In this document: positions 219 through 64,000 of the stretch, piece by piece
How positions within the stretch are numbered: the first letter of the stretch is position 1
Layout of the letters: every line of letters starts with the position of its first letter
Origin: Deltaproteobacteria bacterium
GTDB lineage: Bacteria > BMS3Abin14
Assembly (NCBI GenBank): GCA_013151915.1
Contig: JAADHJ010000010.1
Coordinates: forward strand, 1-64,000
Direction: 5' to 3'
DNA length: 64,000 nucleotides
Position numbers and translations under genes: made by a program
The notes under the pieces: generated by a model
Database searches by the model: none
What the model was told of the DNA's origin: nothing
Seen by the model: only the letters and a program-made list of their open reading frames with translations

Positions 219-318
219 GTTGGACATTGGACGTTCTTTACCCCGTTGGACATTGGACCTGTTTTTCCCTCTGGACCCTGGACCCTGGACTGCTTTATCC
301 TGTTGGACATTGGACGCC
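219..318 (+). repeat. Heptamer-type tandem array (GGACATT/GGACCCT)
   Basis: Degenerate 7-base units GGACATT and GGACCCT alternate with short spacers such as TTTACCCCGTT. The same spacer precedes the GTTGAAC array near 12270 and, in reverse, the one near 62615. This suggests modular arrays spread between genes. It lies just downstream of the larA-like gene. Confidence 0.65.
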
Positions 319-333
319 TTTTACGACCCTATA
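313..333 (-). repeat. Hairpin repeat family 1, partial copy (left end)
   Basis: On the minus strand this reads as a variant of the family signature GATAGGGTCGTAAAAAGTCC (here TATAGGGTCGTAAAAGGCGT). The TAG inside the signature is the stop codon of the upstream larA-like gene. Only the left end of the element is present. Confidence 0.6.
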
Positions 334-5873: not shown

Positions 5874-6007
5874 GATAGAGTCGTAAAAAGTCCATCCGTG
5901 GCTTTTTACTTCACGAAAAGCGAAAAATTCATTTTCGCTTTCCTCACAAATCTTCAATTTGGACGCCCCTAAGGGGACGCGTTGATGACTTCACAAGAAG
6001 TCTTCAA
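5874..6007 (+). repeat. Hairpin repeat family 1, full copy
   Basis: The copy starts with the signature GATAGAGTCGTAAAAAGTCC and ends with TGATGACTTC...AGTCTTCAA. It contains the five hairpin blocks described for the copy at 34131. The right end runs into pta: the last codons of pta, encoding about [10 protein letters not shown], and its TAG stop are read from the repeat. Confidence 0.85.
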
Positions 6008-7533: not shown

Positions 7534-7613
7534 TTGAACCTCCATCACAAGGCTTTTCCATTCGGGATAATCTCGAAAAATCTCACCGACATACCGTTCC
7601 AGTACAATGGGTG

Positions 7614-7628
7614 GACTTTTTACGACAC
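7614..7628 (-). repeat. Hairpin repeat family 1, partial copy (left end)
   Basis: The minus-strand word GTGTCGTAAAAAGTCC matches the left end of the family-1 element. The TAA inside it is the stop codon of rsmD. The rest of the element is missing here. Confidence 0.5.
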
Positions 7629-8168
7629 CATAATAAAGAGAACAGCCGTATCGCCATACCGCCTCCTATCCGCGATCTCCATGCCGCTCGGGATCACATC
7701 GGGCTCACCGGAGGAGGAACATTCGAAGATAACGAGGCCTCTTGTGAGGGATTTAGCATTTTCAGATAGGGCCATCAAGGTCTTTATTCCCTCACCACCG
7801 CTATAGGGCGGATCAACGAAAACAAGCCCGGTCCCCTCGGGTATTCCCCCGCTTTTAATGAAAGGTCCGACGGGAGCGGTGACCACACGGGAGAGACCCT
7901 CGAAACGGCATGCGGCAACGTTTTTCCTGATAAACCGGCTGGCCGTAGGGCTCCTGTCTACGAATGTGGCTTTCAGGGCCCCTCGGCTGAGCGCCTCCAG
8001 GCCATAGGCCCCTGTACCCGCAAAAAGGTCAACTACCCCGGTTCCTTTCACCCTCTCCCCGATGATGGAAAAGACAGCCTCCCGGACCCGATCCGAGGTG
8101 GGGCGGGTCCCGAGACCACGGGGACAAAGGAGCGGCCGCCCCTTTGCTGATCCGGAGATTATCCTCAC
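7620..8168 (-). CDS. rsmD: 16S rRNA (guanine(966)-N(2))-methyltransferase RsmD
   Basis: The 182-residue protein begins with the family signature MRIISGSAKGRPL, followed by RPTSDRVREAVFSII. It has the SAM-binding glycine motif DLFAGTGAYGLEALSRGA and the catalytic FVDPPY motif. It methylates G966 of 16S rRNA. It starts with GTG overlapping the upstream M42 peptidase stop as GTGA. The rsmD-coaD pairing is common in bacteria. Its stop codon is inside a repeat fragment. Confidence 0.92.
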   Translation of the reverse strand: MRIISGSAKGRPLLCPRGLGTRPTSDRVREAVFSIIGERVKGTGVVDLFAGTGAYGLEALSRGALKATFVDRSPTASRFIRKNVAACRFEGLSRVVTAPVGPFIKSGGIPEGTGLVFVDPPYSGGEGIKTLMALSENAKSLTRGLVIFECSSSGEPDVIPSGMEIADRRRYGDTAVLFIMVS

Positions 8169-12118: not shown

Positions 12119-12312
12119 TGTTCAACGGGATAAGAAACGTTCAAAAGTTCAAAATGTTCAATGTTCAATGTTCAAAAGTTCAATGTTCAACGTTCAAAAG
12201 TTCAATGTTCAAAAGTTCAATGTTGGACCTTGCTTTACCTATAGCCTATAGCCTGCTCTACCCCGTTGAACCTTGAACGTTCTTTCCCCACGTTGAACCT
12301 TGAACGTTTTTT
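12119..12312 (+). repeat. Heptamer-type tandem array (GTTCAAT/GTTCAAC/GTTCAAA)
   Basis: About fifteen degenerate 7-base units of the GTTCAAN type fill most of the gap between the response regulator and the TamA-like gene. They are followed by GCCTATAGCCTGCTCTACCCC and GTTGAACCTTGAAC pairs. No open reading frame or terminator is clear. Confidence 0.75.
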
Positions 12313-21027: not shown

Positions 21028-21040
21028 CTAATTCCTTCCC

Positions 21041-21158
21041 TCTGTACTCTATACTCTGGACCCTGGACTCTGGACTCTTATGACTCTGGACTCTTCCCTC
21101 TACTCTGGACTCTATGACTCTGGACTCTATGACTCTGGACTCTGGACTATGGACTCTG
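21041..21158 (+). repeat. Heptamer-type tandem array (GGACTCT/ATGACTCT)
   Basis: Fourteen or so units of CTGGACT or TATGACT give a near-continuous 7- to 8-base periodicity across the gap between coaBC and the MBL hydrolase gene. The same unit occurs at 57654-57680 and, as its complement, at 62661-62698 and 59281-59332. Confidence 0.8.
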
Positions 21159-22307: not shown

Positions 22308-22442
22308 GATAGAGTCGTAAAAAGTCCATTCGTGGCTTTTTACTCCACGGAAAGCGAAAAATGTCATTTTCACTTTCCTCACAAATCTTCGATTTGCGCT
22401 CCCTTCAGTGGGAGCGTTTATGACTTTTTACAAAGTCATCAA
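22308..22442 (+). repeat. Hairpin repeat family 1, full copy
   Basis: It runs from GATAGAGTCGTAAAAAGTCC to AAAGTCATCAA with all five hairpins. Hairpin D here is CGCTCCC/GGGAGCG, where the copy at 34131 has GCGCCC/GGGCGC, a compensated change. The murJ reading frame runs into the repeat and takes its final residues (about DDFVKSHKRSH) and its TGA stop from it. Confidence 0.9.
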
Positions 22443-28398: not shown

Positions 28399-28457
28399 AG
28401 CTCGACCTCCGACCCTTCATTTCAGCGTGTGGAATGGCCTTCGACCCCACATCCCGC

Positions 28458-28481
28458 AACGTTCAATGTTCAATGTTCAAC
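28458..28481 (+). repeat. Short GTTCAAT heptamer run
   Basis: About three GTTCAA(T/C) units lie between leuS and the adjoining family-1 hairpin repeat. The unit is the same as at 12119-12312 and 63928-64000. Confidence 0.6.
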
Positions 28482-28590
28482 ACGCCCATGGGGGGGCGTT
28501 CAAATCGAAGATTTGTGAGGAAAGTGAAAATGACACTTTTCGCTTTCCATGGAGTAAAAAGCCATTAATGGACTTTTTACGACACTGTCA
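28481..28590 (-). repeat. Hairpin repeat family 1, copy lacking the last hairpin
   Basis: On the minus strand it runs from GTCGTAAAAAGTCC to the ACGCCC/GGGCGT hairpin; the terminal TGATGACTTC hairpin is missing, where GTTCAAC heptamers take over. The stop codon of the response regulator at 28588 sits at its left border. Confidence 0.85.
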
Positions 28591-28962: not shown

Positions 28963-28989
28963 CTTCAATCTCCAGACCGTCTGAAAGCT

Positions 28990-29138
28990 GATGACCTTTT
29001 ACGAAGTCATCAACGCGCCCCGCATGGGTCGCCCAAATCAATGACTCGCACCATAAGTCATTGATTTATGAGGAAAGCGAAAATGATACTTTTCGCTTTC
29101 CGTTAAACAAAAAGCCGCGGATGGACTTTTTGCGACCA
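28990..29138 (-). repeat. Hairpin repeat family 1, copy with enlarged hairpin
   Basis: Hairpin C, usually CAAATC/GATTTG, is here extended by a nested insertion so that AAATCAATGACT pairs perfectly with AGTCATTGATTT over 12 bp. The other hairpins and the signature GGTCGCAAAAAGTCC (minus strand) are present. An insertion that keeps pairing supports a structural role. Confidence 0.85.
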
Positions 29139-29150
29139 TATAAAAGTAAA

Positions 29151-29988: not shown

Positions 29989-30147
29989 TTAAATGTTCCT
30001 TTCGATAATCGACCCGGGCGCCATGAACGGGCTGTCCACCATCACCTCCGGGCCGTCCATGCCGGGCAAGGTATCCCATGGACCTTCCCATCCACACCGG
30101 TATTTACCAAGCTTCCGGAATTTCTCACATGCCCCGGTTTCTAGCAT
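29989..30147 (-). CDS. Possible small protein, 52 residues, between cheB and the GAF gene
   Basis: A reading frame of 52 codons starts with ATG inside the 3' end of cheB (23 bp overlap) and ends in TAA one base before the GAF gene ATG (ATTTAAGATG). It fills an otherwise empty gap. The predicted protein has no membrane segment; it contains two Cys (positions 7 and 20), two Trp and a C-terminal PFMAPGSIIERN. The ribosome binding site is weak. No family is recognised. The tight coupling on both sides argues for a real gene; the short length argues against certainty. Confidence 0.45.
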   Translation of the reverse strand: MLETGACEKFRKLGKYRCGWEGPWDTLPGMDGPEVMVDSPFMAPGSIIERNI

Positions 30148-32089: not shown

Positions 32090-34156
32090 TTACCCGCTCG
32101 GCTCCATCAGGGATCGGATGGTCAGCCGCACGGTCCTGTCCGGGTCGGAATCGGCCATTTCAAGGAGTGTTCGCTCTACCTGATCTCCACCTTTCCCGAC
32201 GAGGGAATGAACGGCGAAAATCCTTGTGCTGGCATCCTTATCCCCGAGCGCCTGCATGAGCAGATCAAGACCGGCGTCTGAAGGGATGTTCCCGAGGGTC
32301 CGGCAGACGGCACGCCTTATCTCCACGGTCCCTTCGATAAAAGCCTCCTTGAGCAGTTTCATGGGGACTTCATATCCTGCGCTCACCCTGCGTCCCAGGG
32401 CTTCAATAACAGCGGTCTTCAACATGAGATCTTCGCCATGGAGAATATCGGACAGATCCCCGGGATCCAGGTCCGGCTGCATACTGAGGGATGTGGCGGA
32501 CGCTGCCCTGACCCATGGATCCTGGTCGTAAAGAGCCGATTTGAGGGGTTCAACGGCGCCTTCCGGCCTCATGATTTCCAGGGCCATGGCGGATTCCGAC
32601 CGGACTTGGGGATCCTCATCGCTTAAAGCGCCCATCACAGCCTCGGCCGCTTCTGATCCCTCACAACGACTGAGAGCCCGGACAGCCGAAGCCCTGATAA
32701 GGGGCTCCGAATCACGGAGGGTCCCAAGGAAAAGGTCGATATGTGTCGATGGGTCCACATCACCGAGCACCCTGATCAGGAGGGCACGGACCTCGGGCGG
32801 TGAAGTTCCCAGGTGAGGACCGATTTTTCCAAAAAAAGCCCCGGGATCTTTTTTGCCCAATACGGACAGGGCCGCTCCCCCAACCTCGACGACGTCCGGA
32901 TATTCATCAAAGAGGAGGGAAAGGATGGAGTCTATGGCATCAAAATCCCCAAGGGCGGCCAGGGCAAGGACGGCATCCTTTCGGACGTGCCCGCTGACAT
33001 CTCCGAGCATCGGGATTATATGGGAAAGCAGGCCCGCGCCGCCCAGCTTTGTCAGAACCTGCAGGGCTTTTCTTCGAATGTTTCCCTCAGGGTTCTGGAG
33101 AAGTGAAAGGAGGATCGTGCGGTCCCTATTGCCGATGGTGAAGAGGGCCATGCCGACATCGCCCTCCAGGGAATCATCAGCGATAAAGGCGAGGACGGCC
33201 TCGGTGGCCCTGTCCCCGCCGATGAGGCTCAGGGCGGCAAGACAGTCCTTTCTCTCCTCAATCCGGTCGGCAATCTCCAGATGGTCGATCATGAACGATG
33301 TAATCTGCTCATCGGCATTATCCGCCACAGCCGCGGCAAATTTTTCGAGGTCTCCACCGGTTTCTTGCGCCATGGCCCTTCGATAGATAGCCCCCAAAGC
33401 CGCGAACGCCGCTTTAACAGCACCCCTGGGAAGGGATGGGATTCGGTCGATGAGCCCCAACCCATCGCTGATGGAGCCGATCCTCCCTATTCCCCGAACC
33501 GCGGGTGCGGCCAGAATACGGTTGTCAAGAAAACGGAAGAACGAAGGCAGCGCCTCCTTTGCTCCCAGGCTGGAAAGAGCGCTCAGGATGCTGAAAGCCA
33601 CCCAGTCATCGGCCGAATCGAGTGCACTGATGAGGGCGCTCACGGAGGACGGGTCACCGATGTTTGCCAGGCTCTCGGCTGCGGCTGCGCATATATTCTG
33701 CTCCGGATCATGGAGTAGTCTGATCAGATCGGGGACAAATGAAGGAGTGGCAATATTCCCCAGGATATCCACCAGAAACTTTCGGATATCCGGCTGCTCC
33801 ACCGACAGATGCTCGGAAAGCAGGGGAGCTGCTTCCCTACCCATCCTTCCGAGGACCTCCACGACGGAGTTTCTCAGGGTTACTTCATGGGTCGGGTCCA
33901 TCATGGGAATAAGACGGGAAATCAGCCCCCTGTCGGGCGCAAGCGAGGAAATCCCCTCAATGGCCTCTTTCCTGACCCGCCAGCTCTCATCGGACAGGGG
34001 AACAGGGAGCCAGCTGAGATCGTCTTCCGAAAGCCCCTCCTTCAGGTCCAGCATGGCCAGCCGCCGGACTTCCTCGTCCGGGGACTTTAATTCAGCAACC
34101 CGGGCCTCCCTGCCTTCAGGCTTCAATCCTGATAGGGTCGTAAAAAGTCCATCCAT
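32090..34156 (-). CDS. HEAT-repeat protein in chemosensory cluster
   Basis: The 688-residue protein consists almost entirely of HEAT or PBS-lyase-like helical repeats (examples: VPDLIRLLHDPEQNICAAAA, ALSDEDPQVRSESAMALE), about 18-20 units, without signal peptide, membrane segment or catalytic motif. Such alpha-solenoids act as binding scaffolds. It sits directly before cheR. The start codon (34154-34156) and the GGAG upstream of it lie inside a family-1 hairpin repeat, which supplies the first residues (MDGLFTTL). No alternative ATG exists before about codon 30. Related HEAT proteins occur near chemosensory genes in other deltaproteobacteria, to my recollection, but the function is unknown. 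Confidence 0.8.
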   Translation of the reverse strand: MDGLFTTLSGLKPEGREARVAELKSPDEEVRRLAMLDLKEGLSEDDLSWLPVPLSDESWRVRKEAIEGISSLAPDRGLISRLIPMMDPTHEVTLRNSVVEVLGRMGREAAPLLSEHLSVEQPDIRKFLVDILGNIATPSFVPDLIRLLHDPEQNICAAAAESLANIGDPSSVSALISALDSADDWVAFSILSALSSLGAKEALPSFFRFLDNRILAAPAVRGIGRIGSISDGLGLIDRIPSLPRGAVKAAFAALGAIYRRAMAQETGGDLEKFAAAVADNADEQITSFMIDHLEIADRIEERKDCLAALSLIGGDRATEAVLAFIADDSLEGDVGMALFTIGNRDRTILLSLLQNPEGNIRRKALQVLTKLGGAGLLSHIIPMLGDVSGHVRKDAVLALAALGDFDAIDSILSLLFDEYPDVVEVGGAALSVLGKKDPGAFFGKIGPHLGTSPPEVRALLIRVLGDVDPSTHIDLFLGTLRDSEPLIRASAVRALSRCEGSEAAEAVMGALSDEDPQVRSESAMALEIMRPEGAVEPLKSALYDQDPWVRAASATSLSMQPDLDPGDLSDILHGEDLMLKTAVIEALGRRVSAGYEVPMKLLKEAFIEGTVEIRRAVCRTLGNIPSDAGLDLLMQALGDKDASTRIFAVHSLVGKGGDQVERTLLEMADSDPDRTVRLTIRSLMEPSG

Positions 34157-34263
34157 GGCTTTTTACTCCACGGAAAGCGAAAAGCGTCATTTTCACCTTC
34201 CTCACAAATCTTCGATTTGAGCGCCCCTAAGTGGGCGCTTTGATGACTTCCTGCGAAGTCATT
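34131..34263 (+). repeat. Hairpin repeat family 1, full reference copy
   Basis: Five consecutive hairpins are visible. A is 34140-34166 (GTAAAAAG and CCAT pairing with ATGG and CTTTTTAC). B is 34172-34201 (GGAAAGCGAAAA with TTTTCACCTTCC, imperfect). C is CAAATC/GATTTG at 34205-34219. D is AGCGCCC/GGGCGCT at 34220-34239. E is TGATGACTTC/GAAGTCATTA at 34241-34263. It lies between two co-directional genes, giving the HEAT gene its start codon and the 34262 gene its TAA stop. Confidence 0.9.
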
Positions 34264-35212
34264 AATCCTCCCCCTCTTTCATCACCGTACCAACCCCTCT
34301 GGAACGCAGAAGGGCCAGCATCTCCTCCTTAAGCGCCGTCTCATAGCTGCCTCCGTACTCAGGGAACCTGCTCTTCAGCAGCAGAACCCCCTCTTCAAGG
34401 TCATCCGCGATCAACTCCAACGCCGTCTCAGGTACAGAACCCCGGATCATATCCTCGTTGTAAAGCGCAACATCTCCCACAATGATTCTGCACATCCTTC
34501 TCACGTCCTCCTCGAACGGCTCCCCGATCTGTTGGAGTGATTTCTGATGGATCTCCTCAATCTCTCTCCGGTCGTCAACTGCCAGGTCGGCATGCGCCCC
34601 GCCGACCTGCGGTTCAGACTCCGGACGGTCCCCGGATTCGCTCTCCAGGCCGACACAACGCCTGATCTTGGTGATAAGCATATCCGGCAGATGGTGTCTT
34701 TCTATATAATCGTCCGCACCGTAAAGGGAGGTGGGTTCCCTCTTGTAACGGGTACCGTGGTGGAGGGAAGCGAGCAGGATGGACGGAATGTGGTCTTCCC
34801 CAAGGGTTTCCCTCATCCGGTCAATCATTTCATACCCCAACATGTCGGGAAGGACCACGCTGAACAGAACCGCATCCGGCGGTTGGAGGGACAGGATCTT
34901 CAGGGCCTCGGTCCCTGTCGATGCGAGCCGCCCCCTGAATCCGTTTCTTTGGAGAATCCTCACAACGAGATGGCCCAGGGCCTGTTCCTGAACCACCACC
35001 AGAACCGTCAGGGCGTCTTCGGCTATCTCCTGCTCTTCCCCGGGCAGAACAATGGGGATCAGAGAACCGCACTTCCTGCAGTTGAAGGAGAAAACTCCAG
35101 GCGGCAGTTTGTCCGGATGAATCCTGTAAAACCTGCCGCACCCGGGGCATCTGAGGACAGGTGAGTCAACCTCGGAGGATTCCCCCATGTTTTTTTCAGG
35201 TGTTTTTTTCAT
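34262..35212 (-). CDS. Zinc-ribbon protein with degenerate (non-phosphorylatable) receiver domain
   Basis: The 316-residue protein has a zinc ribbon with Cys22, Cys25, Cys45 and Cys48, then a receiver-like domain at about 68-185 and a helical C-terminal region to the end. In the receiver the phosphoacceptor Asp is replaced by Ser118 (VLFSVVLPD) and the acidic pocket is missing (VLVVVQEQ), so canonical phosphorylation is not possible. It should act as a constitutive protein-binding module. The architecture parallels the gene at 11519, which keeps its Asp. It overlaps the CheW gene by 4 bp. The TAA stop is at the edge of a family-1 repeat. Confidence 0.8.
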   Translation of the reverse strand: MKKTPEKNMGESSEVDSPVLRCPGCGRFYRIHPDKLPPGVFSFNCRKCGSLIPIVLPGEEQEIAEDALTVLVVVQEQALGHLVVRILQRNGFRGRLASTGTEALKILSLQPPDAVLFSVVLPDMLGYEMIDRMRETLGEDHIPSILLASLHHGTRYKREPTSLYGADDYIERHHLPDMLITKIRRCVGLESESGDRPESEPQVGGAHADLAVDDRREIEEIHQKSLQQIGEPFEEDVRRMCRIIVGDVALYNEDMIRGSVPETALELIADDLEEGVLLLKSRFPEYGGSYETALKEEMLALLRSRGVGTVMKEGED

Positions 35213-38973: not shown

Positions 38974-39088
38974 GATTGATAACCTCGCAAAAAGTCTCTT
39001 CGAACCTTTTTCCTCGGCGAGGGATGACTTCCTCACTTATTCAGTATAAGGCTCCTCGCACCAGGCACGGCATACCTGACGCCCGTTT

Positions 39089-53728: not shown

Positions 53729-53775
53729 GATAGGGTCGCAAAAAGTCCATTGATAACTTTGTAAAAAGTTATCAA
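53729..53775 (+). repeat. Hairpin repeat family 1, internally deleted copy
   Basis: Only the left-end signature (GATAGGGTCGCAAAAAGTCC) and the terminal hairpin remain. Hairpin E here is TTGATAACTTT/AAAGTTATCAA, while full copies have TGATGACTTC/GAAGTCATCA; the paired change keeps complementarity. The stop codon of the following gene (53772) is in its right border. Confidence 0.85.
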
Positions 53776-54974
53776 TCTTCCGGTATCCCGAAGACCAGGC
53801 CATTGTCAGTCGCCCTGACGGTGTAGGGTTGAGCAAAGGGATAGGTGAGGTCCGATGGCAAAATAAATTCACTTTGGACAAGGTCATCCGCAGTCACAGG
53901 GTAGATTCCCTTCTCAAGACGGTAGACATTCATGGCGAGATCCAGACGCGATGTCTGGGCTTCCGCGATGGATCTTTTTATAATGACGGCTTTTTCGGAT
54001 GTCAGCCTTGAGAAAAGAAGAAGGCGGTAGCCGGAAATGCTCAAGACCGAAAAGGCGATAAAGAGTACAACGGCAAACACCGCAAATGTCACGACCATGG
54101 AAAAAATCCTTTTCCCCGTTCCGGTCTTTCCCTCTTTTTCGGTGGTTCTGGGCGTTGACGCCGGTACCTTGACGGGTTTGATAAGGCCGAATCCCAGAAG
54201 GTCAACGAGGATTCTGGCGGCCTCGAACTCACCGAGAAGCGATCGGTATGCAATATCGCTAACCGTCCATCGGCCATCAAGGAGGTCAAAAACCATCTCC
54301 TGCTCGGCGGTAAGCAGGATTTTATCCCCATCATTCGGCTTAGGTTTTTCACCACCGAAAACATCGATATCGGGAATATCCTTTTCCACATGGTCACTCA
54401 TCCGAGACCTTCTAAGAATCTTATCCTCCGCACTGGCAAGCCTGGTGAACACTATATCCAATGAGGGAATCTTTCCCATGATACCCGGCCATTCATCGAC
54501 CATTCGGGCGGCCTCCATGAGTACATATTCCGCCGCCAGCGGGGTCAACAGTTGGGTATCGTAGCTGACCTTCCCTCCCTCAAAACGGTAGTTGCCGCTG
54601 GTCCACTGGAATATCTTGAAGAGAGTTTCCCTGATCTGAAAAGTCAGGACCGCTTTAAACTGTTCGGAAGTAATGTACCCCTTTTCCTGGAGGATATAGC
54701 CGAGTTTCTTCATGGTCCTTCCCTGTTCCTCAAGGACATCATCGAGCTGCGTTCGATCGATCAGGCCGGACTTGAGAAGAATATCGCCAAGCCTCTCCTT
54801 GGCGATGGTCTTTGCGGTGCCGGATTCGGCATTCACGACCTTTCCCGAGTCGAAGGTTACGGCAACGCTCTTCCCCTTGTCCTCCAGTTGGAGAATCCCC
54901 GTCTTTCTCTGATGTGAGATAAGCTGGAAGATATCTGAGAGGCCGAAATCCTTGAGAGTGCCTTTAAGCGCCAT
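53772..54974 (-). CDS. DUF4388 (PATAN) protein with membrane segment and pseudopilin-like tail
   Basis: The 400-residue protein starts with a DUF4388 domain (LKDFGLSDIFQLISHQRKTG; VTFDSGKVVNAESG), continues with a helical middle region and has one membrane segment at about 292-315 (VVTFAVFAVVLFIAFSVLSI). The roughly 80-residue C-terminus (LDLAMNVYRLEKGIYPVTADDL) resembles the beginning of the major pseudopilin GspG C-domain. Function is unknown; cytoplasmic sensing linked to a periplasmic tail is a reasonable guess. The ATG at 54974 is 4 bp after the upstream stop. The TGA stop lies in a repeat. Confidence 0.78.
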   Translation of the reverse strand: MALKGTLKDFGLSDIFQLISHQRKTGILQLEDKGKSVAVTFDSGKVVNAESGTAKTIAKERLGDILLKSGLIDRTQLDDVLEEQGRTMKKLGYILQEKGYITSEQFKAVLTFQIRETLFKIFQWTSGNYRFEGGKVSYDTQLLTPLAAEYVLMEAARMVDEWPGIMGKIPSLDIVFTRLASAEDKILRRSRMSDHVEKDIPDIDVFGGEKPKPNDGDKILLTAEQEMVFDLLDGRWTVSDIAYRSLLGEFEAARILVDLLGFGLIKPVKVPASTPRTTEKEGKTGTGKRIFSMVVTFAVFAVVLFIAFSVLSISGYRLLLFSRLTSEKAVIIKRSIAEAQTSRLDLAMNVYRLEKGIYPVTADDLVQSEFILPSDLTYPFAQPYTVRATDNGLVFGIPED

Positions 54975-57549: not shown

Positions 57550-57653
57550 GTACCTCTACTTCCCCTCGAGCTCCTTTAAAGTTCCCGGAATGACGTTCAT
57601 TCGGACGCGGTCCCGCCAATCATGAGATTGCCGCTCCTCGTGTCCGGCTATCC

Positions 57654-57680
57654 CTCTGGACTCTGGACTCTGGACTCTGA
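57654..57680 (+). repeat. GGACTCT heptamer run
   Basis: Four consecutive CTGGACT units. With the promoter and leader at 57383-57549 and weak family-2-like words near 57620 (GAGATTGCCGC), this is what the gene-free stretch 57383-57848 holds; no mazG promoter was clear in 57681-57848. Confidence 0.7.
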
Positions 57681-57848
57681 AGTTACCCTGAAAAGTATAG
57701 CAACTAACACCCCTGAATACCATTTTCCCGTTTTATATGATTATATCCATATTCTCCATTGTTTTCCTCACCCGTGGTTGGCATACTGACGGGAAATAGC
57801 CCGCCAGGCCGTGTGGCCGAATGATAGCCCGACAATACAGGACATCGG

Positions 57849-61298: not shown

Positions 61299-61494
61299 GG
61301 CCTTTTCCCCATTACTGGCTTTCCGGCACAAGGGTACTTGGGGCTGTACGCTCCGCGCACATCCAAATTCCCCCGGTTTGAACATGGAGATATTACAACA
61401 GAAGGTCTTTGTTTCGCAACTTAACGAAAAATATGGCTACCCTGGGAGTCTGGGTGGGATTCTCCGACGAATCTGTGATCCGGCATGGAAAGAC
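61299..61494. other. Gene-free stretch upstream of the CHASE kinase
   Basis: The interval 61299-61682 holds no gene. Its middle is the family-1 repeat at 61495-61625. In 61299-61494 and 61626-61682 I see only a GC-rich leader and an A/G-rich tract; no clear promoter. Confidence 0.5.
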
Positions 61495-61625
61495 GATGAC
61501 TTCGCAAGAAGTCATCAACGCGCCCACCGAAGGGCGCGCAAATCGAAGATTTGTGAGGAAAGTGAAAATGACACTTTTCGCTTTCCGTAAGTAACAAAAC
61601 CATTAATGGACTTTTTACTGCCCTA
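61495..61625 (-). repeat. Hairpin repeat family 1, full copy
   Basis: On the plus strand it runs GATGACTTCGCAAGAAGTCATC, then GCGCCC/GGGCGC, AAATCGAAGATTTG, the GAAAATGACACTTTTCGCTTTCC block, and GGACTTTTTAC. The signature at its far end is slightly changed (GGCAGTAAAAAGTCC on the minus strand). It lies between the CHASE kinase and the receiver-PilZ gene. Confidence 0.9.
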
Positions 61626-61682
61626 CCAAGGATGAACGTGAGTCTGAGGATTCCAGGAAATCAGGGGGAAGAAGGGAAAAGT

Positions 61683-63903: not shown

Positions 63904-63923
63904 GATAGGGTCGCAAAAAGTCC
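63904..63923 (+). repeat. Hairpin repeat family 1, partial copy (left end)
   Basis: GATAGGGTCGCAAAAAGTCC is the left-end signature of the element and is followed directly by GTTCAAC heptamers, not by the rest of the hairpins. Confidence 0.75.
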
Positions 63924-63927
63924 AACG

Positions 63928-64000
63928 GGATGAAAAACGTTCAACGTTCAATGTTCAACGTTCAACGTGATAAAGAACGTTCAATGTTCAACAAACCCTT
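63928..64000 (+). repeat. GTTCAAC/GTTCAAT heptamer array, continuing past the window end
   Basis: Units GTTCAAC and GTTCAAT alternate with GTGATAAAGAAC up to the last base. It adjoins a family-1 repeat fragment, as at 28458-28590. Confidence 0.75.

Follow-up and report, generated by a model that had tools for sequence, protein, structure and literature searches.

A probable new family of hairpin-rich miniature inverted-repeat elements in an uncultured bacterial phylum, with an IS1182-like candidate partner

Introduction

Miniature inverted-repeat transposable elements (MITEs) are gene-less elements with matching ends that depend on the enzyme of another element. Members linked to the IS1182 family are known from Methanosarcina acetivorans, where ISMac2 is the partner (PMC3852290). 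The family described here resembles them in being a short, non-coding, putative IS1182-family derivative with inverted repeats (theirs measure 160-169 bp); compared by description, the Methanosarcina elements are archaeal, number 7-14 copies and have direct repeats of 4 or 0 bp, whereas the present family exceeds 150 copies and duplicates a 6-bp AANNTT target (PMC3852290). IS1272 of Staphylococcus, also of the IS1182 family, has a related transposase type and prefers palindromic targets, but its insertion is reported to take the place of a stem-loop and to leave no target duplication (PMC5678879), unlike the element considered here, whose target is duplicated.

Among bacterial intergenic repeats, the enterobacterial ERIC/IRU sequences offer the closest likeness in style, being about 130 nt long, intergenic and present in tens to hundreds of copies, with inverted repeats, hairpins and a target duplication (PMC2229807, PMC10969869). 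ERIC has a 7-bp terminal inverted repeat (TIR) and 5'TA3' termini (PMC2229807), whereas the present element has GAY...ATC ends, the AANNTT target and a host in a different phylum; TA termini are absent from it, and its termini together with the absence of any Rfam match set it apart. The Correia/NEMIS elements of Neisseria likewise are intergenic, have a TIR and a target duplication, and occur in two size classes that differ by an internal segment (PMC2229807), but their 24-bp TIR has TA termini and their target is different. GTAG/CGTC REPs, BIMEs and REPINs with RAYT share palindromic structure, high copy number and intergenic location; however, their units measure 20-40 bp and either go with Y1 transposases or lack an associated one (PMC3733652), whereas the present element is not a 20-40 bp unit with a GTAG or CGTC tag, duplicates its target and has no Y1 link. 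The original prediction, made from the letters of one stretch of DNA, had placed the repeat in the ERIC/BIME style. The description holds in that the repeat is interspersed, strongly intergenic, multi-hairpin and ERIC/Correia-like, but the likeness to BIMEs fails on the lack of a RAYT link and on a real target duplication.

Copies in the window

The window is the whole stretch analysed, 64,000 nt of one contig of the host draft genome. Sequence related to the element is present at all ten sites first proposed, although these are unequal, comprising six long copies, one short form with two ends and three fragments. The focal copy, a full copy of the 135-nt type with GAT...ATT ends, occupies positions 34131..34263 of the plus strand and scores 158 bits against covariance model R1. 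It is bracketed by perfectly matching AATCCT duplications, at 34125..34130 on the left (from sequence reading and flank statistics) and 34264..34269 on the right (from sequence reading). Five consecutive hairpins follow one another within it, all given on the plus strand: hairpin A (34140..34166), which holds the left inverted-repeat core TCGTAAAAAGTC; hairpin B (34172..34201); hairpin C (34205..34219), here in a short version that measures about 35 nt in the 155-nt form; hairpin D (34220..34239), which covaries; and hairpin E (34242..34263), which also covaries and constitutes the right inverted-repeat end. The copy folds far better than shuffled sequences (z = -6.3 as DNA; -5.8 and -6.3 for the two strands as RNA), which bears out the five-hairpin architecture originally described.

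The other long copies lie at 5874..6005 and 22308..22440 on the plus strand, the latter with flanks GATCCT and AATCCT, and on the minus strand at 28455..28589 (previously placed at 28481), where a GTTCAAT heptamer array takes the place of hairpin E, at 28988/28990..29142, a 155-type copy with a long hairpin C, and at 61493/61495..61627. The short form of about 49 nt at 53729..53777 (plus strand) is made up of nothing but the two ends. Three fragments, each about 20 nt of the left end, lie at 313..327 (minus), at 7611..7632 (minus; the site listed as 7614), at the 3' end of a predicted gene, and at 63904..63924 (plus), running into a heptamer array.

Several further features of the window accompany these copies. 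The minus-strand gene at 32090-34156 has its predicted start codon inside the focal element, which may contribute an N-terminus (MDGLFTTLS...) to the protein; alternatively, the start may be mis-called. Intergenic arrays of units of about 7 bp (GTTCAAY and TGGACTC types) occur at 211-324, 12138-12231, 21034-21158, 28465-28499, 57648-57682 and 63928-63990; they are similar to the element target TTCAANNTTGAA, and some copies of the element are inserted within arrays. Small elements of another, related group, whose ends resemble GACAACCTCGYAAAAAGTCTCTTC and share the TCGYAAAAAGTC core, occur at window positions 38978-39009 and at four other loci (L083, L097, L108 and L154).

Copy number, distribution and size forms

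Collecting copies genome-wide with a covariance model, the check named in the original prediction, recovered at least 151 near-full copies in the host genome (G000), a 2.27-Mb draft in 60 contigs. The left end alone has 238 matches genome-wide, against 2 for a reversed control pattern, and 610 kb of host stretches around copies hold 221 model matches, fragments and some opposite-strand matches included. Contig ends C22, C30, C34, C39 and C43 lie in or beside element copies, so the counts may fall short of the real number of copies and may miss intact copies of a transposon.

In a sweep of the whole phylum, whose examined genomes represent one family and 12 species, the element was found in 11 of the 12, with 6 to at least 150 copies each. 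It was absent from 29 genomes outside this set, and phage, plasmid and viral collections gave no match; among the named genomes scanned, matches were confined to Pseudomonadota bacterium CSMAG_1715 and Proteobacteria bacterium SZUA-178.

Copies span about 47 to 186 nt overall, with no transposase gene inside, and cluster near 135, 155 and 175 nt; the shortest forms, of about 47 nt, retain the ends only. The copy at 28990 had been described as carrying an inserted segment that still pairs, which proves to be a misreading: the form of about 155 nt, with the longer hairpin C, is standard in other genera, so the segment is a family-wide feature and no insertion. The 135-nt form common in the host lacks part of hairpin C and is probably a shortened derivative. 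Truncated host copies mostly keep the left end, have variable internal breakpoints and often lie just to the right of a full copy, and right-end-only pieces are fewer and mostly consist of hairpin E alone, a pattern in which detection bias is possible.

Ends, target duplication and tandem copies

The element begins with GAY and ends with ATC, and its imperfect terminal inverted repeats, left GATAGGGTCGYAAAAAGTC and right (as reverse complement) GATGACTTCGCAARAAGTC, have the core GAYNNNNTCGYAAAAAGTC in common. Comparison of the flanks of 98 single host copies finds an excess of matching bases in a single register, in which positions -7 to -2 are set beside the bases that directly follow ATC. 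At least six of seven flank bases agree in 26 of these 98 copies, compared with 5.8 after shuffling (maximum 15 in 2000 shuffles), and in G004, from another genus, the same level of agreement is reached by 29 of 40 copies against 7.1 (maximum 16 in 5000 shuffles). The duplicated 6-bp target is AANNTT, the centre of the palindrome TTCAANNTTGAA when left and right context are read together. Many host copies now have no matching duplication, which may reflect decay or another history.

Seventeen pairs of tandem copies were found; in most, the model ends are exactly 4 nt apart, in the others 1-5 nt, and a spacing of 4 nt corresponds to one AANNTT between elements. As the element starts with GAT and ends with ATC, every junction would re-create the target TCAANNTTGA, making arrays possible.

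The family combines several features of a MITE, namely terminal inverted repeats, a target-site duplication (AANNTT in both G000 and G004), and short length with many copies and no internal transposase gene. It is very probably a non-autonomous DDE-type MITE with AANNTT duplication, a judgement that concerns the class of element and leaves the name of its partner aside. Mobilisation would take place in trans: a transposase would recognise the inverted GAYNNNNTCGYAAAAAGTC ends, the element would insert into the palindromic target TTCAANNTTGAA with duplication of the central AANNTT, and the re-created TCAANNTTGA junctions would allow a second copy to insert beside the first, building tandem arrays with one AANNTT between copies. 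Such insertions would survive almost solely between genes.

Candidate partner transposase

The window contains no transposase, as originally stated, and the DDE_Tnp_1 domain has no match in the host genome, where the candidate transposase survives only as a degenerate fragment at a contig end. The likeliest enzyme would be an IS1182-like protein with PF05598 (DUF772) and PF01609 (DDE_Tnp_1) domains, whose gene occurs in three relatives (G001, G005 and G008), every copy being broken, with ends of the same kind as those of the MITE. The protein matches the IS1182 model NF033551 at 1.6e-33, which is below the curated NCBIfam cut-off, and the element ends agree with those of the MITE, as expected of an IS1182-derived MITE, in a common GAYNNNNTCGCAAAAAGT core. 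A 5' end GAYNNNNTCGCAAAAAGTATCATTCTTC is conserved in three genera, with 3' ends of the same type; G001 and G008 have the 5' end of the G005 element, together with its own conserved continuation.

In G005, the transposase gene (520 residues) is bounded by GACGGCATCGCAAAAAGTATC (after AATATT) and GATGGACCCGCAATTAGTC (after AACCTT), flanks that are not identical, and this element and a MITE copy lie exactly one AANNTT (AACCTT) apart. From the C-terminal catalytic region of the G005 protein, about 60 residues that G008 has are missing; the G008 gene is itself divided between contigs, one of its parts holding a stop, and its element has AAGGTT before the 5' end and AAGTAA before the 3' end. The G001 transposase is cut after about 167 residues. 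In the element-rich drafts G000, G004, G006, G007 and G010, a partner transposase is either not intact or not detectable, and in the G000 and G004 DNA examined, searches for a transposase enclosed between MITE ends turned up nothing beyond separate copies paired by chance. In G004, a 464-aa open reading frame (locus L230, contig C29) that lies near two MITE left ends resembles an IS1182-type transposase; no inverted repeats of the MITE type were found around it on testing.

On this evidence, the IS1182-like transposase is the best candidate mobiliser, at somewhat better than an even chance; the link is good but circumstantial. The strongest competitor keeps the DDE-type MITE and gives it a transposase from some other element, for example an unassembled IS. 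The small number of IS1182-like relics against hundreds of MITEs, and the presence of other DDE genes in G001, G004, G005 and G008, lend this reading some weight, but none of the four other DDE genes tested has inverted repeats of the MITE type, whereas the IS1182-like element has them at both ends, and a different partner is accordingly regarded as possible though distinctly less likely.

Placement, orientation and turnover

Judged by midpoint, only one of 151 host copies falls within a predicted gene, compared with 84% of random positions, and none of the 40 copies of G004 does, genes in both cases being called by a simple codon-based gene finder. Random placement, including inside genes, had been named in advance as an observation that would tell against the original prediction, and it is not seen.

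Sites are unstable between congeners. The window aligns to contig C27 of the congener G001 at about 84% identity, where the element is absent from the sites matching 5874 (a near-clean empty site), 22308 and 61493, and where those matching 28455, 28988, 34131, 53729 and 63904 hold remnants or other forms. These empty or altered sites indicate that the family is mobile or rapidly lost.

Orientation is biased. In gaps between co-directional genes, 77 of 102 host copies and 20 of 29 in G004 lie opposite to the genes, 97:34 together (p=2.5e-7, p=0.06 and a combined p of about 3e-8, respectively), a bias that falls outside what simple insertion predicts. Divergent gaps hold 30 of the 151 host copies, at a density like that of co-directional gaps.

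Paired stem changes and their interpretation

The paired changes noted in the stems of D and E are genuine. When only the 31 best copies are compared, just 3 of 42 pairs have any double change, while across 150 copies 23 of 42 pairs show one, against 5.8 after shuffling and 4-12 in slid controls, concentrated in D and E; between genera the figure is 17 of 42 against a control of 4.5. Covariation above background, the check originally suggested, is thus obtained against both shuffles and slid controls, in counts that ignore shared ancestry and come from alignments fitted to structure.

Whether this covariation denotes selection on folding, as was claimed, bears on a reading in which the family spread as a MITE and was then kept by selection as an RNA element, its hairpins processing or stabilising operon mRNA as reported for ERIC and Correia. 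The excess of double changes over controls, within and between genera, and the 97 of 131 co-directional-gap copies lying opposite to genes would fit such a role. If RNA structure were under selection, pairing exceptions read on the transcribed strand should lean towards G-U. In total, the two kinds of stem exception, G-T and A-C, are about equal in number (140 vs 118, p=0.19); split by orientation, those of the host lean towards G-U rather than A-C when the transcribed strand is read (permutation p=4e-4), but the effect is absent in G004, and unpaired host bases show a weaker trend in the same direction, so that part of it may be mutational. Against an RNA role stand also the copies in divergent promoter gaps, which are not scarce, the instability of sites between congeners, and the lack of any promoter-like (sigma-70) or intrinsic-terminator-like match in the four copies scanned. 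Selection as RNA is therefore judged improbable, and since there is no consistent strand signal of G-U against A-C, the paired changes are no proof of selection acting on RNA or, as first claimed, on folding. The palindromes may instead stay matched because they serve as element ends, or because imperfect palindromes in DNA are evened out by templated repair, and they would be maintained mainly at the DNA level.

A more speculative history, which must be counted a long shot, has an IS1182-type transposase inserting or replacing stem-loops in an ancestral two-end MITE, so that the five hairpins arose by stepwise capture through 47-, 135-, 155- and 175-nt forms, while hosts kept one orientation as transcribed hairpins affect operon mRNA.

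A REP-, BIME- or REPIN-type repeat moved by a RAYT (Y1, HUH) transposase on single-stranded DNA hairpins, as hairpin architecture, high copy number, intergenic placement and two Y1_Tnp genes in the host (open frames of 333 and 342 aa) might suggest, is rejected as highly implausible, because neither gene is flanked by the element and both have their own inverted repeats, G007, G008, G010 and G011 have the element with no Y1_Tnp match, G002 has Y1_Tnp and no element, and a variable AANNTT duplication is not expected of IS200/IS605-type insertion. No RAYT gene flanked by the repeat, with GATAGGGTCG...GTCATC ends, was found. The two Y1_Tnp genes, of RAYT/TIRYT type, lie at L031 (contig C37) and L032 (contig C44) with inverted repeats GGGGACGTAGTTAAGTTG and GGGGTCAAAGCTCAGAT, and a small derivative of the L031 element adjoins a MITE left end at position 30040 of host contig C16.

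Conclusions

The repeat is probably a new MITE family, ERIC/Correia-like in style and a member of neither, with an IS1182-like transposase as its probable mover. For a whole uncultured phylum it would supply a MITE family that is well defined, follows a clear target rule and has a candidate parent, and the junctions that re-create the target offer an explanation for the formation of tandem arrays. The family also cautions against taking paired changes in genomic hairpins as a sure sign of selection on RNA, and its orientation bias makes the effects of MITEs on operon transcripts testable in a non-model group.
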